From contig JAAMXP010000247.1 in NCBI GenBank assembly GCA_019693395.1, positions 1-64,000 on the forward strand: a DNA stretch of 64,000 nt. Reading direction: 5' to 3'. The translations under genes were made by a program, and so were the position numbers. Positions within the stretch are counted from its first letter, which is position 1, and the number at the start of each line of letters is the position of its first letter. Below, in pieces: positions 3,001-60,300 of this stretch. Below the pieces are notes generated by a model. It worked only from the letters and a program-made list of their open reading frames with translations. It searched no databases and had not been told where the DNA came from. Source of the DNA: Ettlia oleoabundans. Taxonomy: Eukaryota > Chlorophyta > Chlorophyceae > Chlamydomonadales.

Positions 3001-4976
3001 ATGTAAGGCAAGAGAGAAAGCTGGAGTGCCGTTGAAGGTACACAGGAAGCACAATAAGCAGCCAAATGTGCAGCAGGCAACATTGCAGTGTGGAAACAGT
3101 TGCAGCAGGTTCACTTGAAACAGCACGGTGCAAGACATAACCCAGCGCAGCGTAACACAGCAGGGGCCCCACCTGACTACGTGTACGTGTGGGCCAAAGC
3201 AGTTGCTGTATGCCAGCTGCACCCCTGCCCGAGCACGCAAGTTGTACTGGGCTCGCATCTCATCGCCGACTTGGGTGGCGGCACGCAGAGCCAACTCATC
3301 ATCAAAAGTGGCAGCCCATGCGATGTTGATGGGGTAGATGGTGCCGCCGCCAGATTGGCGGACAGCTCCCGCCAGGCCCACCTTCACGCCATGCAGGCAC
3401 TCCTCCTGCACAAGGAGCACAAGGAGGGGATATGTCGAAATTTGCACAGCTGTGTTTTGCCATAAACAAACAACGCTGCTACCGTGTCAATCTCACTGCC
3501 ACCGCAGCTGGAAGAAGACGCGGTTCAGCAATGTGCGAGACACCACTGCAAACTAAACTGGCTGCTTCCTTTATAATGGGCAGCCTCTTGCATCTTGGCC
3601 TGGCCCTGGCCCATCAAGACATCCACTGCGGCACCCCTCTGCTTAACCATCCACCTCAAATATGCTACCAAGCCCGAAACTTACGGATTTGAGCCCCAGC
3701 CATGACATACCTGCCAGTTGAAGGCCGGCACAGCCAACTCCTCCACCCCATTGCCTGTGGCGCTCTGCAGCTGATCCACCTTCTGCCGTGGGGTCAGCCG
3801 TTCCAGCAGCGCCTCTGCCCGCTGCTCAACAGACAGGCTGGTGTTCCACCAGGGGAACTTACGAACATCAGGGCCGTCAGCATCCACCGCTCCTGCCCCC
3901 TCCCCAACCTCCTCCTCCTCCTCTTCATCATCCTCATCCGCTTGCTCCAACTCCGACCCCTTGGGTGCCGCCTTATCCCTGTTAGACTGCTGCTTTTCCG
4001 AACCTTCTTTCTCCAATTCCTCCTCCTTGCCACCAGTGCCAAGCTCGTCTCCTGCCACAGCTGCTGTTGCTGCTGCCTCCTCTTCTACTTGGTCAAATGC
4101 TGCCTTAGACTGGCCATTAGCCCCCTTATGGCCACCTGCTTCCGTTTGGCCTTCTGGAACATCTGCTGCTTCACTGCTGGGATGTGATACTCCGTTCTGT
4201 GCCGCTGCCCCTCTGGCAACTTCTTCTGGCTTGCCTTGTGAGGTTGCTGCTGCTTTGGCGCTGGCTAATCCCGCCTCGACCCCTGCAGCTCGCTCTCGCT
4301 GCTCTAAGCTCTCCTCCAAGTTGGCATCCCCACCCTGCACCCCAGCTGCTTGCTCGGATCCCATTCCTGAGTATGTTTGCTGCAAGGCACCAGTGCTGCT
4401 GATTCCACCTGCATCTGTCCCCCCGCTGGTAGCACCCACATCTTCTGATGTTCTTTGCTGTTCATTTTCCAAAAAAGCACCAAATTCCGTGAAGTCATCA
4501 ATGCTTTCAGCGTCCTCTGCCTCGGATTGTGTGGCGGGGTTGCCGTCCTCGCTTGCTGCTGCGCTGGCGCTAGAGAGAAAGGTGGAAGTTGTTAGCCGAA
4601 CCCTGGCCAGCTGGAAGAGGCTCTTGGGGACAGTGCTGGTGCCACCTTCTGCAGCAGGAGCAACAGGTGCAAGTGCAGTACAAGCCTGATGCTCATGTTT
4701 GCCAGAAGCATGTCCACTAGCGGGTGCACTGGGCGATTCCAGCTGCTGGCGGTGGCGCAGCTCCCTCTGGAACAGCTGCTGCGTAGACAAACCTTTCAGC
4801 GCGATAATCAATGATGGGCCAATCAAAATTGCTATTGTAGCGAACACAACGATCAGTCGCTCCCCCCAACTCCGCTTGAAAACTGGTGGGGAGATGGGGG
4901 CGCCTTTTAAGCGGGTTGGTGTGGAGGGAGGGCTGCCGACCATCCTTACTACCCACTCCTTGCTCATGTCCAGCAT
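1..4976 (-). CDS. Glycoside hydrolase family 3 enzyme (beta-xylosidase/beta-glucosidase type), membrane-anchored; partial
   Basis: Predicted exons (complement): 4976-3711, 3405-3173, 2909-2855, 2620-2377, 2166-2071, 1820-1628, 1347-1215, 1034-952, 703-556, 368-297, 128-36. All junction phases close, and the left edge falls inside the next intron, so the C-terminus is missing. Plant BXL-like GH3 landmarks appear in order: FPWWNTSLS with LTPRQKVDQL, EECLHGV, RDPRWGRMAETYGEDP, CKHFIGNDLEGW, GFDGLVVTDC (the Asp corresponds to the GH3 nucleophile), GIVLLKN, KRVAVVGPFAN and VEGEGYDRTTLKL. GH3 enzymes hydrolyse terminal beta-linked sugars, with retention, from glycans. Residues 1-40 are polar and basic, 41-60 form one hydrophobic helix, and about 61-373 are a low-complexity Ser/Ala/Glu-rich acidic stalk before the catalytic domain. 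This suggests a type II membrane enzyme facing the lumen or cell surface. The substrate cannot be told from sequence. Confidence 0.85.
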
Positions 4977-5425
4977 CCGCCAGAGTCCTTATGTTCTCGA
5001 TGTTTGGAGGGTCCGCAGTACAAAGTACTGCCCGTGTCATCGTGGTGCCAGCAGAGTTCAACAGCCCTATGCCGCAGTGCGACAAGCTTTGTGCCATGCC
5101 ATACCATGGTATCACGCCGCTACGTGTAAGCTCTGAAAATGCGCCGCTGACGAGCTGTCCTTTCTTTGCAGGATTCTTGCAACCGGCACCATCAGCGACA
5201 GGCACAAGCTGGCTATGCTGTTGCTATTATTGTTGACTGCTCCGGTATTGCCACTTTAATGTTGAAGACAGACAGCCATTTACATACAACACAAAATATT
5301 TTAATTACAAGAAATAATTACAAGAACGACTAGCCCGCATGCTGCAGATCCAGCGTTCCCAAGCCTGCCTCCGCCAGCACCGTCCTGTGCAGTACAGGGC
5401 TTGCGTGCTGCTGCTCCCAGACCAG
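4977..5425. other. Intergenic, upstream of the GH3 gene
   Basis: This 449-bp gap lies between the GH3 start codon and the stop of the next minus-strand gene. It should hold the GH3 promoter and 5' UTR plus the neighbour's 3' UTR. The only compositional feature is an AT-rich patch around 5280-5330. I see no gene or RNA in it. Confidence 0.5.
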
Positions 5426-6952
5426 CTACTGAAGGCGAGGGCTGATTCTTGCCTCAAACGTGGCTCCATGCTTTGGTTCTTCCCGCGACACGGCAGCTGC
5501 CAATGCTGCGGGTGATGCACCTGCTCCAGACAGTGCCGGCTGTGGGTCGGCGGCAGTAATTGTGCCTGCTGCCTCTGCCGCTGCTTCTGCTAGTTCCTGT
5601 GCTCTCTGCTGCGCTGAATCTGCAACCAAGGCTGCCTTCACTGCCCCCAGGCGCTGCTGCATGGCCAATAGCAGGGCATCAATCGTCTGCACCCGGCCAA
5701 CACCCGCCTCCAAGCTGTCAGCCTGCATTGCGTGTGGGCCAGCAGATTCTCTGTATGGGCAGGTGAGGGCACGAACATGGACGCTAGGTGCATTCAAGCA
5801 ACAACAGTCAGCCCTTCTGTATCCGCAGGGGATGAAGCACATCATTACATTTGTAGGCATGCTTAGTCTACCTTGGAACACCTTACCGTTCGTGACAGAC
5901 GACCTAACCACCTGCATGCCAACCTGCGTGCCCTGCGCTCTTGCCCTCTGCCGCTGCTTGGCTAGCATGCTCTTGGTCAACCGCAGGTGGCTGCTGCTAC
6001 CGTGCCGCCGTATCAGCATTGCCTCCATGCAGGGCGACACAGCGGGGCGCGCCAGCGCTGCACGCAGAGCCTTGATCGCTGCAGGCAGATGAAAGGCAGG
6101 GAGAGTGCAATGCCTACTCACAGACTGCTAATGGCAGACAAATGTGCCACGATGAATGCAACAGGAGTTGTTAAGCTATGGTTGCTGCCAATCTTCAACT
6201 TGTGCCAGATTCTCAAGCTTGCCTGCTGCGGGGTTGCCACCAGGGTTGCCGAGGCCGCCAAACAGGGGCAGCCTGAGGGGATCGAGGCCTAAGGCCAGGG
6301 CCAGCCGTACGGTTGGGTCATTGGCACCTTCCAATCCCCCTGTGGCCCCACCGGGGTGGTGGAGGCTGCTGTCTGCAGTGGCATGTGTTTAGCATCTGGT
6401 CAGGTATCGGTTGAGAACAGAAGCCACGCTCAATCGCCACGAGCAAGTCACACCTGCAGCATTGCCACTTCCATGCAAGCAATGAAGGCTCCATGCTTTG
6501 TCACCTTCAGACATGCTGGCTGCCACATCGCTGCCTAAGCCTTCCCAGTCGTCATCCTCATCCTCGTCCCAATCAAGGAGAAAGTGTGGCGTCCGGGAGG
6601 CGGAGGGCGCTTGCAGAACAGGTGCTGGCAGCACTGCCCTGCCCAAAGCCGCATTCGAGAAATTGTCCTTTTTGCCAGGGGCATGTCCCCCTGCTGCTGC
6701 CACTGCTGCTGCTGCTGCTGCTGTTGCAACCTCTGTGCTGCTGCCAGCCACCCCTGGTTGCGCTGGCGGCAGGGGCAGGTCGCAGGGCGGCACATATGCA
6801 GTGCCACCAATGCTGTTGCTTGGCCTGCGGGCTGCGGCTTGCGAGTGAAGTTTTGCACTGAGCTTCACGGCCCCGACCTCTTCCACCGCGACAAACTGCG
6901 GAAAGGGCAGGGAGACCCGGCCCGGCCTGCGGCTTTGCGCAGGCCCCGACAT
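5426..6952 (-). CDS. Unrecognised protein, about 360 residues
   Basis: A four-exon model closes in phase (complement): 6952-6454, 6372-6241, 6078-5924, 5722-5426, giving 361 codons with the stop. The frame is open further upstream to about 6991, but the first ATG is at 6952. The N-terminal part is basic, then alanine-rich, then has an acidic motif (LLDWDEDEDDDWEGLG, near residue 125). The middle contains DPTVRLALGLDPLRLPLFGG, and the third exon is Arg/Lys/Gln-rich. The last exon is an Ala/Glu/Gln-rich stretch likely to be helical or coiled-coil. No family was recognised. The donors of exons 2 and 3 are the least certain parts. Confidence 0.5.
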
Positions 6953-30023: not shown

Positions 30024-33000
30024 ATGGCGAAGAGTGCCAAGAAGGCTGCTGCTGTGGCCAAGGCCCAGGAGGCCGAGAACCTCAAGAAGAAGAAGATGGC
30101 ACAGAAGAAGCAGGTGTCAGAGTCGGAGGTGAGCGGTTTGTTGCACCGCCGCCATCCAGAGTTGCTGTGCGGCATGCATGCACCCCGACTGGGCCGCAGC
30201 GGTTGCCGAACTGCGCCTACAGCCTGTTCGCATTCGCCAACCACGAGGGTGCTTCACGATCAACACCGGCATGCATGCCCGAGTTCCCCGTGGCTGGAAC
30301 CCGCGGCGCTGAACGCTGCTCCTGCCTCTGCTTGCATTGCGGCAGGAGAGCAGCAGCTCGGAGGAGAGCAGCAGCTCGGAGGAGGAGAGCAGCGACGACG
30401 AGGAGCCCGCTCCTGCCAAGAAGGCCGCCCCCGCTCCTGCCAAGAAGAAGGAGAGCAGCAGCGAGGAGGAGAGCAGCAGCGACGAGGAGGAGAGCTCGGA
30501 CGACGAGGAGCCTGCCAAGCCCGCCGCCGCCGCCACCAACGGCAAGGCCAAGGTGTGCGCCGCCATCACCAGGGCGTCCTTATGACCTCTTGCCTGCCTG
30601 CCTTTTAGACTGTTGTGTTATATATGGCCTGCTTACTGTTCTTCTTGCATTCTGCATGCACCGGGGGTGCCGACAGTCAGGGCAGCTGGGTTAGCCACGC
30701 ACGTTTGCCATTCGACAGCGGGCGCCATGGCGGCCACCACCCCCCGTCCGGTTCTGTTCCGGCAGGCTGCATCTAGCTTTGAGGAGGAATCTTCCTCTGA
30801 AGAAGAGGATGAGGAAGAGGAGGGGAAAAAGGGCAATGAGGAAAGCAGCAGTGAGGAGGAGGAAAGCTCCGACGAGGAGGAGGCAGCGCCCGTAAGGCCT
30901 GCCGCTGCTGCCGCAGCAAAGGTACCCCATACGCCTGTCTGCAGAGGCAGCTGACACCCCTGCCAGTTGATTTCCCCCCCCATTCCCTTGCCCAACTATT
31001 CAGGATAGGCCAGATGGGAAGACGCAGAGTCTCAGCGCCTAGTGCTAACTTTCCGCCTTGTGCTCTCCCGTGCTTGCCTCTCGGGCTCCTTCCTGCAAAC
31101 CCCGCAGGCTGCTGCTGCCAAGAAGAAGACGGAGTCCAGCAGCGATGAGGAGGACTCTGATGAGGATGATAGCTCTGAGGAGGAGAGTGAGGAGGAGGAG
31201 AAGCCCAAGCCGGCCGCAAAGAAGGCCGCGCCCGCCAAGAAGGAGGAGAGCAGTGAGGTGGGTCTCGCTGCCTGGCAGATATGTTCAATGTGCCTGATGG
31301 CAGATGCTCTTAGCTTGCCACGCTGACCAACTCACTGCTGTCGCCATCTGTTGCCAGTGTGGCAAGAGCCTTGGACTGGCACGCTCTGATCTGGCCTTCA
31401 CCACTCTGCCAGGCTACGTGCCCCTGTCAGTTGGCAGGCTTCAGCCTGGCACGTATCCTACCTGCCCCTTAGCACCTCACCTCTAAAACCTGCGCCTGCC
31501 TCCCCTTGCTGACTTGGCGTTGCACCTTGTACCCTCCCCGTTCTATGGTGCAGGAGGAGTCCAGCGACGATGAGGAGAGCTCTGATGAGGAGATGAAGGA
31601 GGCTGGTGGGTGCTCGCCTTCTTCCTTTCTCATGTCCACGCACCGTTGGCGTTGCGCTGCTTTGCGATAACCTAGTGGAACCCTTGCAGTCTGCAGCTCT
31701 GCTCATCCTTGCCCTGATGCCAGTTCGCGCTGATTCCGTGCCTCTGCCGCCACGGCTGTATGTATCCTGCTCACCCCCCGCGTGTGCCACCGGTGCAAAG
31801 ATGGTTGTCTCGTTCGTCTGAATGCGAACCCCACCAAGGTTCTCCAAGCTTGACGACAAGCATTATATCACCACCCATAAACTGAGCTCCAACCGGCACA
31901 TGCATTGCACTTTGGGCCCATAGTTTTGCACTGATTCTGCGCTATCCGACCCTGCTGCTGCTGCCTTACACCTTTTTGTCACTCGATTGGTCCCCAACAT
32001 CACCAACCAATGGCTGGTGCCTTTGCTGCCATGCCCGTTTCTGCAGAAAAGCCCAAGCAGGGTGTGAAGCGCGCCGCTGACGGCAAGGCCAAGAAGGAGG
32101 AGAGCAGCGAGGAGGAGGAGTCTGACGATGAGGAGGACAGCTCCGAGGAGGTGAGGGTGGGCAAAATTTGGGGAGGGTGTTTTTGTGTGAAGTGACACAG
32201 CACTCTGTTGTTCATGGGTGAATGGGTGACGTCTGGGTTGGCTTTCTATTCCCGTTAGCCAGCGCTGGCTCACTGAATGCGCCACTCCTGCCATGCCGGT
32301 CCTCCTGCAGGAAGAGGAGAAGGAGGAGGAGAAGAAGCCTGCCACCAAGAAGCAGAAGGCGGCTGACGGCAGCGCGGTGGACGTGTCTGCAGCCAACGGC
32401 AGCCGCACCATCTTCATTAAGAACCTGGCCTGGGCCGCAGACGAGGTGAGGGGTGGGCGCTTGTGGGAATATTCTCGGGGTTTCTGTAGCTGACAAGCTG
32501 TGGATTGTGCTGGCGACCTGGTCAGCTGCATGCCTGCCCGAGGCAGTGGGCCGCTTGCCCTCCATCGGTCAATCTGCCAAACACACCCGCTTCGTGGTGG
32601 GTTGCCCGCTTGGTGTACCCCTTCTTTATGTTTCAAGTTGTTATTTTGTGGCGTGTTTGAGCGTTTGCCGTGAAGAAAGCAAGCCCATCCGGTGGATTCC
32701 TGCCACCGTCCAACTGGCCTCTCTGCCAGAGCACGGGCCCTCTGAGCAAACTGACGCACATCATGTTAGGATTGTCTTCTGCTCTATCCATGCTGTTGCA
32801 CGCGCTGTGAGGATCTCATGCCCCCCTGGTTCATTCCTGCAACCAATTCACTGGCTCCATGTCGGACCGCTGGGCTTGCTGAGCGCCGATTTATTCTCAC
32901 CTCCTCCTGCATGGGTTTGCCACTCGTAACGAGAAGCGTCAAATTGTCACCTATATACCCACCCTTTCACTTGACCATCAAGTGACAGACTACAACCAGT

Positions 33001-36000
33001 AAGCCGTTCGGTACTGCGCGCGCTGTGAGGACTTCACGCCCCCCCTGGTTCATTCCTGCAACCAACTGCCTGGCTCTGTGCCAGAGTAATGGGCTTGCTG
33101 AGCGCTGTTCTCCCTTCTTCATATCAATTGTATTGGTTTGCTTGGTCGTTTTGGGTTACAAACACTATCCCTCCTTTTTATCTCGGCCTTTCCAGTCGCC
33201 TGCATTACCCTAGCCAGAGGCTTACGTCTCCATTTGCCATCTGTTTTCATCGGGCTCTCGCGCCATGATAGTCCAAACGCCTCATTCCTGCAACCAACCC
33301 CCTGGCTATGCCAGACATTTGGGCTTGCTGAGCGCTTCTCACTGGTCTTTCCTCTTTTGGTGCACATGTTGTCTGTGCTTTTTTATGGAATTTAGACACA
33401 CCTGCCTGCTGTCCAATTTCGCTTGCTGCACGCGCTGTGAGGATTTCACGCCCCCCCTGGTTCATTCCTGCAACCAACTGCCTGGCACGGTGCTAGACAT
33501 ATGGGCTTGCTGAGCGCTTCTTGTTGATCTTCTGTCTTTTGGTGCACATGCTGTATGTTGTGCTTTATACATGATTTCACCTGCATCCACTTGCTGGCCT
33601 CGAGATGCCCGGTTTGCTACCCGTTCGCCCTGCTCCACGCGCTGTGAGGATCTCACGCCCCCCTGGTTCGTTCCTGCAACCAATTAACCGGCTCCTTGCC
33701 GGACTGATGGGCTCGCTGAGCGCTACATGTTGTTACTCGTCAGTTGGGGAGGGTCAACATTCATCTTTGCAACATTCATCACATCTTACAACACCCATAT
33801 CCTCCCTTCTTTCACCTACCAGAATCAACAGCTAGTTCTGGTTCCCGTCGTTTTTCTCTTTGCTGCAAGCGCTGTGAGGATATCACGCCCTCCTGGTTCA
33901 TTCCTGCAACCAACCGCCTGGCTCTGTGCCAGACTGTTGGGCTAACTGAGCGCTTTACTTGCCACTTTCGCACATTCCTATCCTCTTCAACCATCGCCGT
34001 CACCTATTGGATATGTTGCATCATCTTCTTTTCCTCGCGTCACATCACATTGAAGCATCTCCCTCATGAGTAGGGGCCAAAAGTGTATGGGCTCTTCCCG
34101 ACGCCCACCACATATCCACCTTGTCCCTCACGTACCTGCAGGATACCATCCGGGAGTTCTTCGCCGACTGCGGGCCCATCGCGGAGGTGCGCATCGCATA
34201 CGACCGCGACACCGGGCGCGCCAAGGGCTTTGGCCACATCCAGTTTGAGGAGCTGGAGGGCGCTGCCAAGGCCATTGCCAAGAGCGGGCAGAGCCTGATG
34301 GACAGGGAGGTCTTCATTGACTCAACAACCGAGCGCCAGCAGAGTGAGTGTGGATGCCTTGTGGGGCTGCGATATGGGTTGGGTTAATTTGTCCTCACTT
34401 CGGCCCTTTTCAGCGCCAGAAGAGTTAGTGTGTCGGCGGGGGCCGTCTGTGGGGAGGTGGTGTGAGATTGTGAGGCAGGGCCAAGTGCGGGTTTTTACTG
34501 TTGCGCACCTGGGGGCTGAGTTTGTAGGTGGTATACAGCAAGAGTAGAGCTCCGCTGCGGCATGCAGGTCTAGTTGACTGTTAAGAGAGTTCCGTCCATA
34601 CGTATTCTGTGCTTTGTTGTGGAGTTGCAAAGCTTTGTGCTGTTGCCAATACTGGCGGGGCAGCTGCGTGTTTAGCCGCATGCGCTGCCACCCGGCTGGG
34701 GTGCCGTCCTCCCTCGCGAGGTGTTGTTGGTACATAGCCCACGGGAACGCCACAGAACGAGCGCGCCGGTTGTAGGCCCCCCGTTGCCTCCTGCCGTCCG
34801 CTGCGCGTGTCTCCGCACCGCGGCGCGCACGGCGGGGCCAGGTGCGGGGACCCGCCTCCCGGTTTGCGCGGCATGCTGATTCCATTGCCCTGGGGAGCGC
34901 CGTCGGCGCCTTTACCCTTTGGGTCCTACCCAGCAATCAACATCCCAAACTTTTCACCGAAAAAAACTCTCCCTCATAACGGCGCTGTAAATTCAGGGCA
35001 CATGGCAACAGCCTGCCGGCTTGCAGCGTTTGATACTTAGGTTTAGCTCCCCTCCTGTCTCCTGGTTAGTCTAGCCCAACCCCTCAACCTGCATCATGAG
35101 CCAGTCGTCATGAACCTCCTGCTGCTACTCTCCCTTGATTCTTACTGCCTCGCTCGCTGTACTGCCTGTATTCGCAGGGACACCAGGCGAGAACCGGTTT
35201 GCCGCATCGGAGGGCACCACCATCTTTGTCAAGGGTTTTGACACCTCCCTGGGTAAGTGACACCTCAGTTGATTCCTGTCATGTTCCCGGTCCCTGTCTG
35301 CTGACTTGTTGGTCCCTGATGAGCCTGGGTCTGTCAGTGGTTGCATTTGTGGCTGCATTTGGGGCAAGCAGCATGGAGGCTGGAAAGCTGGTTTTTCCTC
35401 CCAGCTTCTGCTCCTCCTCCGCCTCCGCCCTACAAACCAGGTCATGTTGCAAGGATTTTAGCCAGCCCAATCCTGCCTTTTCCTGTTCCTGCCCTCCCTT
35501 CTCCCCCTGCAGGCGAGGACGATGTGCGTGCCCAGCTGACAGAGGCCTTTGGCGAGGCGGGCACCGTTGTGAATGTGCGGCTGCCCACCGACCGCGAGTC
35601 GGGAGAGCTGAAGGGCATCGGCTTCATCGAGTTCGAGTCAACTGAGGCTAAGGTGAGGAGGGAGAGTGGGAAGAGGGGGCAGGTGTCTCCCGTTCGAAGG
35701 GAACGGGAGGGCACAGGCAAAAGCAGCAGGCAGTTGAGTCCGGCTGGGATGCGTGAAAGATCTTTACCTGTCTGCACTTGCATCCTTGTGGCCTGCCGGC
35801 CAGGCTTCCTGTTGAGCATCCCTGCATCCCCGCACACTGGCGTGGGAGTGCCATGCAACGCTTGCTGGCAATTGTACGGGGCTGGTTGCTGGCTGGGGCA
35901 CTGCCTGGGATGATACACCCCAAATCCAACGCCGAAAGTTCATGTGTGGATTCAAAAAACGAGCTTTTTAATACTGAGGCACAGCCCTAGTCAGCAGCTC

Positions 36001-37097
36001 CAGCCCCTTCCGCCTGTACCAAATGCATGGCACCCTGCTCACCTTTGCACCCTGCACCTTATGCATACCTTTGGGACTGGGGCTGGTGTCCAGCCGAAGC
36101 TAATCGTAGGGTCATTATGCGTTTAGTCCTCAGCTAACCCGACGGTTGTCTTGCCCCTGGCACCCTCTGCCCTCCACCCACCTCGCTGCAGAACAAGGCA
36201 GTTGAGCTGGACGGAACTGAGGTGGCTGGCGGCTGGATCAAGGTTGACCCCAACCCCGGAACCCCAGGCGGCGGCGGCCGTGGCGGTGGCCGCGGCGGTC
36301 GTGGTGGTCGCGGCGATTTTGGCGGCAGGGGCCGTGGCCGCGGCGACTTTGGCGGCGGAAGGGGCGGCAGGGGCCGCTTTGGCGGTGGCCGCGGCGACTT
36401 TGGCGGGCGCGGCGGCGGCCGTGGTGAGTGTTTGCTGGCGCCGCTGCGGCACCCCTTCTGCACCAAAGCTGTGTAGCATTTGCTTGCATTAATGTACTGG
36501 CGGGGCAGCTGCGTGTTTAGCCGCACGCGCTGCCACCCGGCTGGGGTGCCGTCCTCCCTCGCGAGGTGTTGTTGGTACATAGCCCACGGGAACGCCACAG
36601 AACGAGCGCGCCGGTTGTAGGCCCCCCGTTGCCTCCCGCCGTCCGCTGCGCGTGTCTCCGCACCGCAGCGCGCACGGCGGGGCCAGGCGCGGGGACCCGC
36701 CTCCCGGTTTGCGCGGCATGCTGATTCCATTGCCCTGGGGAGCGCCGTCGGCGCCTTTACCCTTTGGGTCCTACCCAGCAATCAACATTCCCACATACAC
36801 ACTCAACACCTTGCATGTCTGTCCTTTTGCTTGGCCCGGCTGCTGCTGAGTAGGCCCATTCGGCTGTTTGCCTGGGCTGCCTAGATCTGCATAGCTGGGT
36901 TGCCGTGCTACCTGCACTCCTGTGCTGTTGTGCTGCCTGCCACCGCACAGCTTCAACACCTTGCTGCCGGCTTGTTCTTGTGCTCTTGTTCAGGCCGCGG
37001 CGGCCGTGACGGCGGCAGGGGCGGGCGCGGTGGTCGTGGCCCACGCATCTCCATTGATGCTGGCGGCAGCGGAAAGAAGACCACCTTTGACGATTGA
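30024..37097 (+). CDS. NUC: Nucleolin (acidic N-terminus, two RRMs, RGG tail)
   Basis: Twelve exons (30024-30128, 30346-30552, 30766-30921, 31108-31257, 31554-31605, 32047-32150, 32311-32445, 34142-34343, 35178-35252, 35513-35652, 36192-36423, 36994-37097) encode 553 residues; every phase closes. Exons 1-7 give a Lys-rich start, then repeated acidic Ser/Glu/Asp tracts separated by PAKKAAP-type basic patches. RRM1 runs TIFIKNLAWAADE to KGFGHIQFEELEGA. RRM2 runs TTIFVKGFDTSLGEDD to KGIGFIEFESTEAK. The last two exons encode Gly/Arg repeats (RGGRGGRGDFGG type) and the end GGSGKKTTFDD. This is the plant/yeast-type two-RRM nucleolin, a nucleolar protein needed for rDNA transcription and pre-rRNA processing; the Ser/acidic tracts are likely CK2 sites. 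Intron 7 (32446-34141) holds seven structured RNA-like elements, and introns 8 and 11 hold copies of a 294-bp repeat. Confidence 0.94.
32663..32751 (+). ncRNA. snoRNA-like structured element, copy 1 (divergent)
   Basis: This 89-nt element lies in nucleolin intron 7. The closing stem is GUUUGC (32663-32668) with GCAAAC (32746-32751). One nucleotide later comes a box-C-like GUGAAGA (32670-32676), and CUGA (box-D-like, 32742-32745) abuts the 3' stem strand. Hairpin CGGUG/CACCG encloses the 9-nt loop GAUUCCUGC, and a second hairpin is CUGGC/GCCAG. Stem sequences differ from the other copies while pairing is kept. Confidence 0.5.
32802..32886 (+). ncRNA. snoRNA-like structured element, copy 2
   Basis: This 85-nt element has a GCGC/GCGC closing stem, GUGAGGA at 32807-32813 and CUGA at 32879-32882. 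It has the UGGUU/AACCA hairpin with a CAUUCCUGC loop. The second hairpin is CUGGC/GUCGG, held by G-U pairs. Confidence 0.5.
33020..33105 (+). ncRNA. snoRNA-like structured element, copy 3
   Basis: This 86-nt element has a GCGC/GCGC closing stem, GUGAGGA at 33025-33031 and CUGA at 33098-33101. It has the UGGUU/AACCA hairpin with a CAUUCCUGC loop and a CUGGC/GCCAG hairpin. Confidence 0.5.
33260..33335 (+). ncRNA. snoRNA-like structured element, copy 4 (shortened)
   Basis: This 76-nt, partly degenerate copy keeps the GCGC closing stem, the CAUUCCUGC motif, a CUGGC/GCCAG hairpin and CUGA at 33328-33331. The left box reads AUGAUAG (33265-33271) and the first hairpin has lost its 5' strand. It may be decayed, or the UGAU may make it closer to a true box C. 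Confidence 0.4.
33432..33517 (+). ncRNA. snoRNA-like structured element, copy 5
   Basis: This 86-nt element has a GCGC/GCGC stem, GUGAGGA at 33437-33443 and CUGA at 33510-33513. It has the UGGUU/AACCA hairpin with the conserved loop. The second hairpin is CUGGC/GCUAG, with a U-G pair replacing C-G. Confidence 0.5.
33639..33723 (+). ncRNA. snoRNA-like structured element, copy 6
   Basis: This 85-nt element has a GCGC/GCGC stem, GUGAGGA at 33644-33650 and CUGA at 33716-33719. Its second hairpin is CCGGC/GCCGG, a full compensatory change relative to CUGGC/GCCAG. The first loop reads CGUUCCUGC. Confidence 0.5.
33869..33953 (+). ncRNA. snoRNA-like structured element, copy 7
   Basis: This 85-nt element has a GCGC/GCGC stem, GUGAGGA at 33874-33880 and CUGA at 33946-33949. 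It has the UGGUU/AACCA hairpin with a CAUUCCUGC loop and the CUGGC/GCCAG hairpin. It ends 188 nt before the intron acceptor. Confidence 0.5.
34650..34943 (+). repeat. 294-bp interspersed repeat, copy A (nucleolin intron 8)
   Basis: Copy A matches 36495-36788 at 290 of 294 positions in the same orientation. Similarity starts at TACTGGCGGGGCAGC and ends at CAGCAATCAACAT; flanks are unrelated. No clear terminal inverted repeat or target-site duplication was found. The minus strand has an open frame across the whole unit. Confidence 0.9.
36495..36788 (+). repeat. 294-bp interspersed repeat, copy B (nucleolin intron 11)
   Basis: Copy B of the repeat at 34650-34943, 98.6% identical. All four differences are transitions at CpG sites. 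It sits wholly inside the intron between the two Gly/Arg-rich exons, so it does not alter the protein. Confidence 0.9.
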
Positions 37098-57354: not shown

Positions 57355-60300
57355 ATGCAACGACTGAAAACCCTACTCGCGGCGAATGGCAAGCAGCGGG
57401 AATTGCTGCACAGCCTTAGGGTGCTGGACGTGCTGCAGAAGGATTCGGCAACCCTAGACGAGCTTCTGGTGCTGGCCCGCGTGCACTGCCTCAGCAAGGT
57501 GAATTTGCGCTGGGCTGCCAGGAAGACCTAGCCTCAATTTGAGCCCTTGACATACATGTCAAGGCCCACTGAGCAATCCTGATGCGGCGGCCACGCGGCA
57601 GCACGTTTGCAGTCGCCTGGTGCAGTCCCGGCTGGCTGCCGCCAGTGGCTGCCGCCGCTGCTGCTTGAACATATTGGTCACTATAACTGTCATTGCTTGA
57701 CTTGCCCTTCCACCGTCTTGGTATTTCCTTGTTCATTCCTTCGTTTCTCCATGCATGTGCTGCCCTGCTTCATTGGCCCGCTGCTCTGCTGCTGCCGCTG
57801 CTGTGCGGTACGCACCCCATGCAGATTGAGCTGTACTTCCTTCAGGACGCCTCACAGCTGAGGCAGCCGCTCAACCTGCGCAATGAAGCTGCAGTGGTTT
57901 CCCTGCTGCTGGGTCACCTGGCGGACGAAAGAGGCAGCAATGATGCCGGCAGCCCACCGCATGCCAGGCTGCTGGCAGCGTTGGTAGACTACAGCCGCAA
58001 GCTGTGGCCAGAGCTGGCCAACGGTGACGTGACCTTGAGCAGCTTACATGACAGTTTTGCAAACAGGAGCAGCAGCAACGGCAGAGGTACTGGTAGTGGT
58101 AGTGGTAGCAGCACGACGCCGCCGCCGCCTGCGCCCCTTGGCCAGCCAACTCCCCCAGGCAGCGCCGCAGCCGATTTCGAAGCTTGGGCGCGGGAGCGGG
58201 GCGTGGCGGCGGCAATCACAATTGCCAGCTTTGGAGACTTGCGTGGCTGCGCCGCCAGCCAAGACGTGGCTCCCGGGCAGACGCTGCTTTCCATTCCAGC
58301 AGATGTGCTGATTTACGAGGACACCGTCAAGAACACCGACCTGGTAGGTGGCTTGCTTCTGCTTCTTAGCTGGTGGCGCGACCGTCACTGCTGTACTAGT
58401 GAGGCGGCAACGCTACCTGTTTAGTTGCCAAGGGGCAGACTGAAGACGGTGCAGCAGCTGTTAGGGAAGCGCTGTTCAATTGGTTGCATGCAGTGCCCAG
58501 CTGCAGGTCTATCTGCTGGCGCCCCCTGTTTGCTGGCATTAGTTTCCCCATTTGGTTTATGCTGGAATCTTGTGGTGCAGGGCCGCATGCTGCATGCCAT
58601 CCCAGGCCTTACAATAGACAACCTGCTCATCATCTTCACGATGATTGACAGGTGGTCAGGGCTGGTTCCTTGACAATCCTGCTGACGTGTTTTGCATCGT
58701 CTCATATTGCTCCCTGCTGCTGGCATTGCTCGGCTCCCAGCCGCCACGCGCTGTGAATCGCTCCGGTGTTGTCCAGTTGCACCCCACCTGCGCTAGAAGG
58801 TCTTGCTATGTGCTACCCCTCTGTGCTTTGCTGTGGTGGCATCGCTGGCTTTTTCACGAGCAAAGTGAGAGGCAGTTTTTATGCCGAAGCGCACACTAGA
58901 GTGCCGTTGGCAAACCTGATGGCATTGGGTGGTGCAGGCACGACGAGGACAGCGGGTGGGCGCGGTACTGGCGCTCGCTACCGGCCAAGTACTACACTGG
59001 CATGTCCTTCCCGCAGCACTTCATCGACGCACTGGCCGGTACAGCCGCTCAGCTGGAGCTCAGCCGTGCACAGCAGCACCTGCAGCAGCAGGTACGAGCG
59101 GTTGTTGGCAATGTTTGTGTGGGCCTGCTTACATGCCTGCCCACCAATGAGTGGGTGGGGATGGGTTGCCAGCCCACTCACCAACCTGCTGTGCATGCCA
59201 ACCAATAACCCCAACACTGCAAGCAATCCCAGCTGAGGTTAGTTACAACAACGCATCCAAGCAGGCCTTCCCACCATCTGCTGAACCACACGTGTGCCAC
59301 CGCCCGCCCCCGCAGTATGCCGCCACCCGGCCGCTGTTTCACATGCTGCTCACCGCGTACCCCCAGTACCTCCGGCCCGAGTGGTTTGACTATGAGAGCT
59401 ATTTGTGGGCGGCTGAGTTGTGGTACAGGTGAAGCTGTACTGCATGCTGTGCAAGTGACTGTAGTTGAGGCTCGCTTTGTATGCGGCTGTCCTGCTGTTT
59501 CAGCTTGCCGTGTGCCTTGTGTTTTCTGTTTCGTAAAGCCGTGTTGACCACAAACATAGAGTGACATATGCAGCCCGATTCAACCCAATCCCTGCTTGCC
59601 CGCCTGCCTGCTGCCACCAATCCCCACTGCCCGCAGCTATGCTTTTGAGGTGAGTGCAGCGAGTGGGAGCCAGCACTGGTGTTCCTGTAGGATAGGGCCT
59701 GCGGTGGCCTGCTGAGGCGGGCGGTTGCGGTGGCGAGAAAGGCACTTCTCGCTGTGCAAACCCACTTGCCTGCCTACTTGCAACAGCACCAGCAATTGAG
59801 CGGTTCTTCTTGCTAGTGTTTCTGGCGCGGGCACTTACTAGTGCTATGGGTCCATCCATAATCTATGAACCCCACCCTGTTTTCCTGCTGCCCCAGGTGG
59901 ATTTCCCTGCAGACACAGGATCAGCTGGGGAAGCAGCAGCAGCAGCAGCAGCAGGAGGTACTAACCACCTCGGCAGCAGCAAGCCACACAAGAAAGGGAG
60001 CACAGCAAGCAAAAATTCCAGCAAGGGTGGCAAAGCGAAAAGCAGCAGCAATGTTGCCAGCAGCACCATCGGCAGCAGCAGAGCGGGCACGACATCTGGC
60101 GATGACAGCAGCAGCAGCAGCAGCAAGCCCGTCATGGTTCCCTTTGCCTGCCACATCAACCACAGCCCCTGGCCGCACTGTGTGCGCTACGGCAGGGTGA
60201 ACCCCAAGACATCCACGCTTGACTACCCTGCCTTTCGGCCCTGCCAGAAGGGGCAACAGGTGTGTTATGGAAGAGTGGACGCCTGCTGATTGCCTGCCTG

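Follow-up and report, generated by a model that had tools for sequence, protein, structure and literature searches.

Two tandem arrays of box C/D snoRNA-like units with a shared hairpin loop in a green alga, one of them in a nucleolin intron

Results

Seven structured units lie in intron 7 of a nucleolin gene

The stretch of DNA analysed here (the window; 64,000 nucleotides (nt) of JAAMXP010000247.1) is part of contig C93 in the 32.9-Mb, 1230-contig assembly of the green alga Ettlia oleoabundans. It contains a nucleolin gene of 12 exons (30024–37097, + strand), whose spliced frame is open over 553 amino acids and encodes an acidic region, two RNA-recognition motifs (RRMs), and a glycine- and arginine-rich tail. 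A partial splice used as query matches the RRM_1 domain with an E of 4.6e-31, and the RRM part has 86% identity with a protein of Micractinium tetrahymenae and 75% with one of Auxenochlorella protothecoides. These identities, with a piece of a eukaryotic 18S 3′ end found on one contig, point to a trebouxiophyte close to the Chlorellaceae. Intron 7 (32446–34141, + strand; GTGAGG..CTGCAG; 1696 nt) is the longest of the 11 introns, the other ten measuring 160 to 834 nt, and holds a tandem array of seven units, c1 to c7. Together with nine diverged units elsewhere in the genome, these units probably encode a family of RNAs of the box C/D small nucleolar RNA (snoRNA) type, arranged in two tandem arrays; the loop of a conserved hairpin may be the working part.

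The seven units were originally predicted from the window alone, and all are present within 32663–33953, each 76–89 nt long and separated from the next by 50–154 nt. The unit plan runs, from 5′ to 3′, through a closing stem, one nucleotide, box C, a spacer, the GCCC strand of stem II, hairpin 1 with its 9-nt loop NNUUCCUGC, hairpin 2 (of the CUGGC/GCCAG type), the GGGC strand of stem II, about 3 nt, box D (CUGA), and the other strand of the closing stem. Stem II (GCCC/GGGC), located directly inside boxes C and D, is an element that the original prediction lacked. All seven units carry the loop motif UUCCUGC, a closing stem, and CUGA as box D, and the common architecture claimed for the array holds in six. 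Specifically, c1 (32663–32751, + strand, as for all units of the array) has the stem GUUUGC/GCAAAC, box C GUGAAGA, hairpin 1 CGGUG-GAUUCCUGC-CACCG, and box D CUGA. Box C is GUGAGGA in c2 (32802–32886; box D CUGA), c3 (33020–33105), c5 (33432–33517), c6 (33639–33723; hairpin 2 CCGGC/GCCGG), and c7 (33869–33953). The exception to the plan is c4 (33260–33335), which has a shortened 5′ half, no hairpin 1, and AUGAUAG in the box C region, while it keeps the loop motif, closing stem, and box D.

The sequence TTCCTGCAACCA occurs in intron 7 six times exactly and once with two mismatches; allowing up to two mismatches, the whole window contains 22 matches against 10.5 expected, a count reached by none of 100 shuffles. 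Units c2, c3, c5, c6, and c7 are 82–92% identical to one another, compared with a random level of 58% (standard deviation (sd) 2.8, maximum 65%). The identity of c1 to the other units, 61–69%, scarcely exceeds that level, and that of c4, 61–75%, is partly above it; both belong to the array by loop, boxes, and pairing, not by plain identity. The folding energies of the seven units are unremarkable, with z-scores from +0.6 to −2.3. An additional hairpin over box C (GUGAG-GAU-CUCAC) is favoured by energy in five of these units, yet c1 and c4 do not form it, and we rejected it. Searches for transfer RNAs and against a plasmid collection gave no match.

Nine diverged units form a second array in a snoRNA-rich region

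A second array, with nine diverged units (d1 to d9), lies on contig C12 of the same genome, bringing the family to 16 units. It is flanked on both sides by matches to Rfam snoRNA families that fall below the gathering threshold, all on one strand. The original prediction had called for homologues elsewhere, and array 2 provides them, from within the same genome. Six of its units were discovered with a pattern containing the loop, d5 and d8 with a second such pattern, and d7 with a covariance model alone. A DNA search with array 1 returned array 1 only and not array 2, indicating that DNA searches are blind at such divergence.

No third array was found: three patterns run over the 32.9 Mb, a pattern-led search that units with an altered loop could escape, gave, besides the two arrays, 9, 9, and 8 scattered places, none of which held a unit when scored with the 16-unit covariance model, R2. 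Applied to the window, locus L061, and 18 other loci of the genome, R2 left a gap between 54.7 bits (c4, the weakest unit) and 17.4 bits; across 15 further loci its maximum was 11.7 bits. The 17.4-bit match, at 57514–57578 of the window (E 0.05), was taken as chance. In viral contigs there were 34 pattern matches, and a scan of viral contigs with Micractinium nucleolin revealed no relative.

The surroundings of the units bear on whether they could be functionless, either old retroposons derived from a snoRNA or neutral tandem duplicates in decay. The tandem layout is what such an origin would leave, and the boxes of c4, d6, and d7 are degraded. In addition, although the flanking 45-mers of most unit pairs show random-level identity (57%, sd 4.6), three flanks exceed 70%: d2/d3 downstream (96%), d3/d4 upstream (98%), and c4/c5 downstream (73%). 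The d2/d3 and d3/d4 pairs are recent duplicates with a common flank. However, many unit pairs are alike while their flanks stand at the random level, the three patterns place units at two loci only in 32.9 Mb, R2 finds no unit at the scattered places, and three well-aligned helices carry compensatory changes (see below). We consider decay of functionless repeats very improbable.

Pairing is conserved across the 16 units

The original prediction had argued from covariation among the seven copies of array 1. Six pairs are indeed altered on both sides, but five of the double changes come from c1 and one from c6, so that array 1 alone amounts to little more than a single event. The second array turned this weak seven-copy argument into a strong one, and covariation beyond that expected of neutral tandem duplication is seen with 16 units.

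We aligned the 16 units with MAFFT, without reference to structure. In this alignment both bases have changed in 8 of 18 pairs (44 cells), and the paired share of cells is 93.9%; sliding the partners by 1 to 3 columns reduces this to 27 to 45%, a comparison in which the tested structure, having been taken from one of the units, has an advantage over its slid versions. In 500 column shuffles, the fraction of paired cells, the count of changed cells, and the covariation score always stayed below the observed values. The closing stem (columns 3–6 with 95–98) is 100% paired, with 16 cells changed and two of its four pairs altered on both sides, and compensatory changes occur in three well-aligned helices. 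RNAalifold, given the same alignment and no structure, recovered hairpins 1 and 2 as well as the closing stem. Stem II is 78% paired in the MAFFT alignment, where it is poorly aligned, and 100% paired in a model-fitted alignment, which leans towards structure; its support from these alignments appears weaker than that of the closing stem and hairpins 1 and 2.

Hairpin 1 changes its sequence while enclosing the same loop. Around UUCCUGC it takes the forms CGGUG/CACCG, UGGUU/AACCA, UGGAA with UUCCA, UUCCG, or UUCUG, UGGA/UCCA, CGGA/UCCG (extended in d6), CUGUC/GACAG, CGUG/CACG, and UGGCA/UGCCA. A 9-nt loop sits atop a 4–8-bp stem in 14 of the 16 units. The motif UUCCUGC itself is present in 16/16, an invariance that is partly ascertainment, as the patterns and model used for discovery favour the loop. 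Selection on RNA structure and on one loop offers the simplest explanation.

A loop of this kind could instead act in cis, by binding nucleolin and thereby autoregulating splicing of the nucleolin pre-mRNA. The vertebrate nucleolin recognition element is a stem with a 7–10-nt loop of consensus U/G-CCCG-A/G; the 9-nt loop on a 4–8-bp stem resembles it, and seven copies lie inside the longest intron of the nucleolin gene. However, the loop sequence UCCUGC differs from that vertebrate consensus at two of six positions, nine copies lie at another locus amid snoRNA matches, and the closing stem and boxes C and D are left unexplained, making cis control a very doubtful alternative.

Boxes C and D are placed as in box C/D snoRNAs

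The original prediction had noted a box C/D layout despite a non-canonical box C. Placement beside the closing stem bears out the layout; the deviations from the box C consensus RUGAUGA are real. UGANGA is correctly placed beside the 5′ strand of the terminal stem in 13 of 16 units, with exact UGAUGA in three (d2–d4), and the presence of the latter eases the concern about a non-canonical box C. In full, box C is GUGAGGA in five units, GUGAAGA in c1 and d8, GUGACGA in d9, UUGAUGA in d2–d4, UUGACGA in d1, UUGAGGA in d5, UUAAUGA in d6, AGGAAGA in d7, and AUGAUAG in c4. Box D abuts the 3′ strand of the terminal stem as CUGA in 15/16 units and as CUAA in d7. In a C/D kink-turn, position 5 of box C lies opposite the U of box D. 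Among the 16 units this pair is G-U in six, A-U in three, and another combination in seven, indicating that the position is loosely constrained. The locations of the units, in nucleolin intron 7 and in the snoRNA cluster around array 2, are also those of box C/D snoRNAs. The box C/D identity of the units is likely, at a good level of confidence.

Antisense matches to ribosomal RNA are confined to individual units

If the units were ordinary guides, each would direct 2′-O-methylation of ribosomal RNA (rRNA) or small nuclear RNA through an antisense stretch of 10 nt or more, an element that orphans lack, ending at box D or at a D′-like CUGG or CUGC, and the hairpins would be no more than alternative folds. 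The alga's own ribosomal DNA (rDNA) is absent from the assembly except for an 18S fragment, and we therefore used eukaryotic rDNA contigs of foreign origin, L044 and L045 (JANSYO010000167.1 and JAKUNN010000063.1), which together lack 28S model positions 2311–2710. As a positive control we used a C/D snoRNA of known type in nucleolin intron 10, a SNORD36 relative (35902–35982, + strand; Rfam RF00049, 35.4 bits against a gathering threshold of 30). Its 14-nt duplex with 18S (two G-U pairs), 1 nt from box D, was equalled by none of eight shuffles.

The best case for a guide is c1, in which GCCACCGUCCAACUG pairs at 15/15 positions with the 28S of L044 at CAGUUGGACGGUGGC and ends on CUGG, a match equalled by none of 60 shuffles; the candidate 28S target is CAGNNGGACGGUGGC. 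However, the 28S site differs in L045 and L052, and the match is not retained in d8, the unit most like c1, which makes this a guide candidate for c1 only. Furthermore, c2, c3, c5, c6, and c7 have in common UGGUUCAUUCC (in c6, UGGUUCGUUCC), which forms an 11-nt duplex with one or two G-U pairs with 28S GGGAUGAACCA of L044 and is followed in the unit by UGC, so that an overlapping CUGC is D′-like. The best duplexes of c2–c7 are within the shuffle range, being reached by 3 to 9 of 12 shuffles, and c1, c4, and array 2 all lack the common stretch. Unit d9 forms a 14-nt duplex with 18S that scores 12.4, against a maximum of 12.2 in 12 shuffles.

Against four rRNA pieces, 14 of 16 units did no better than their own shuffles, in the same assay that detects the SNORD36 duplex. 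The best scores on six rRNA pieces, taken without shuffles, were 15 (c1), 12.4 (d9), and 12.0 (c3), and for U2 and U6 of the alga, likewise without shuffles, the best was 10.4 (d2 with U2). Species-specific matches could escape, the alga's own rRNA being missing; on the other side, the pairing of the would-be guide strands within the RNA is conserved. Taken with the results for c1 and for c2–c7, ordinary guide function for each unit is unlikely. We also rejected an apparent resemblance between the loop region and the 5′ end of 18S, as the sense-strand scores of all seven window units are within those of shuffles.

The two foreign contigs are titled bacterial metagenome-assembled genomes and their content is eukaryotic rDNA, that is, contamination. 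The alga's 18S fragment, at 3720–3850 (− strand) of locus L049, is the 3′ end of a nuclear-type 18S rRNA and the sole Rfam match in the surrounding 9 kb. Locus L050 (contig C1228) carries a group I intron at 5171–5846, within a 23S rRNA gene of bacterial type that is probably organellar.

A duplicated block in introns 8 and 11

Introns 8 and 11 of the nucleolin gene share a GC-rich block some 290 nt long, on the same strand (34655–34945 and 36500–36788) and 99% identical between the two introns. When the assembly was searched at the DNA level, these were the only copies found. The folding energy of the block is ordinary, and the first copy has no Rfam match.

Discussion

The original prediction of a selected, structured RNA laid out like a box C/D snoRNA is supported by the second array and by covariation across 16 units. 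In the process that we propose, amplification would have produced the two tandem arrays, seven units in nucleolin intron 7 and nine on contig C12. After splicing of the intron, the closing stem and boxes C and D would fold into a kink-turn to which Snu13/15.5K binds, Nop56/58 and fibrillarin would assemble on the unit, and exonuclease trimming would leave a stable RNA of about 80–90 nt per unit. Presented by hairpin 1, the loop would be the working part, meeting a GCAGGAA-type site in pre-rRNA or another RNA, or serving as a docking site for protein. In that case the ribonucleoprotein (RNP) would be a non-guide snoRNP with a chaperone or processing role, not a methylation guide, with the many copies providing dosage; c1 may additionally guide 28S methylation. 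We tentatively predict the UUCCUGC loop as the contact point.

Several observations weigh against this reading. The boxes of d6 (UUAAUGA), d7 (AGGAAGA, CUAA), and c4 are poor, and these units may be in decay. Shuffles reached the observed number of double-change pairs in 21 of 500 cases and the number of further pair types in 15 of 500, and kinship alone, without structure, can beat column shuffles. RNAalifold did not recover stem II from the 16-unit MAFFT alignment, and the loop carries the ascertainment described above. None of the 4227 families of Rfam 15 matched array 1 (E up to 5), and no Rfam 15 match overlapped a unit of array 2 (E up to 1). No guide common to the family emerged from contiguous-duplex scans and local alignments against foreign rRNA, from which the real targets are absent. 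Finally, a fully structured interior is unusual among C/D guides.

The units resemble canonical box C/D snoRNAs, such as the SNORD36 relative of intron 10, in having a terminal stem, a box C 1 nt inside it, and a box D touching its 3′ strand, in their length of 76–90 nt, and in being intronic or clustered. They differ in that no common antisense guide was found in them, in that box C is often GUGAGGA or GUGAAGA, and in that the interior is occupied by stem II and two hairpins with a fixed loop. The orphan arrays SNORD115 and SNORD116 likewise consist of many diverged tandem copies in host introns with no rRNA target; those RNAs keep unpaired antisense elements, whereas the units described here present a fixed loop on covarying hairpins. 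The non-guide C/D RNAs U3, U8, and U13 share a C/D core with extra structure and serve processing, not methylation. They are usually encoded by single or few genes, are longer, and have other box positions, and the present units, unlike them, match no Rfam family.

Clustered copies in a green alga have a parallel in Chlamydomonas, whose intronic snoRNA clusters (Chen 2008, as cited in PMC7671301 and PMC5122169) are reported to be polycistronic and usually to have multiple isoforms. Homologues of land-plant snoRNAs, with few exceptions, are reported not to be identifiable in green algae (PMC5122169). The family is undescribed in the literature covered, which includes passages of PMC12218528, PMC7671301, and PMC5122169 and leaves supplements and Chen 2008 (Chlamydomonas) outside its scope. 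We call the family orphan-like C/D RNAs in which a fixed hairpin loop stands where a guide would be. More tentatively still, they might represent a chlorellalean class of box C/D RNP in which the antisense guide is replaced by a hairpin-held invariant UUCCUGC, present in at least 16 copies. Such RNAs would serve ribosome biogenesis in trans, for docking or as chaperones, and would be produced from the same transcript as nucleolin.

Box C/D RNAs of the orphan type have long posed a puzzle, for which one genome here offers 16 natural variants that have changed much in sequence, yet have preserved their pairing, the C/D core, and a single loop of seven bases. The fixed loop makes the identity of its partner a sharp and testable question, and the 16-unit covariance model can be used to search other green algae.

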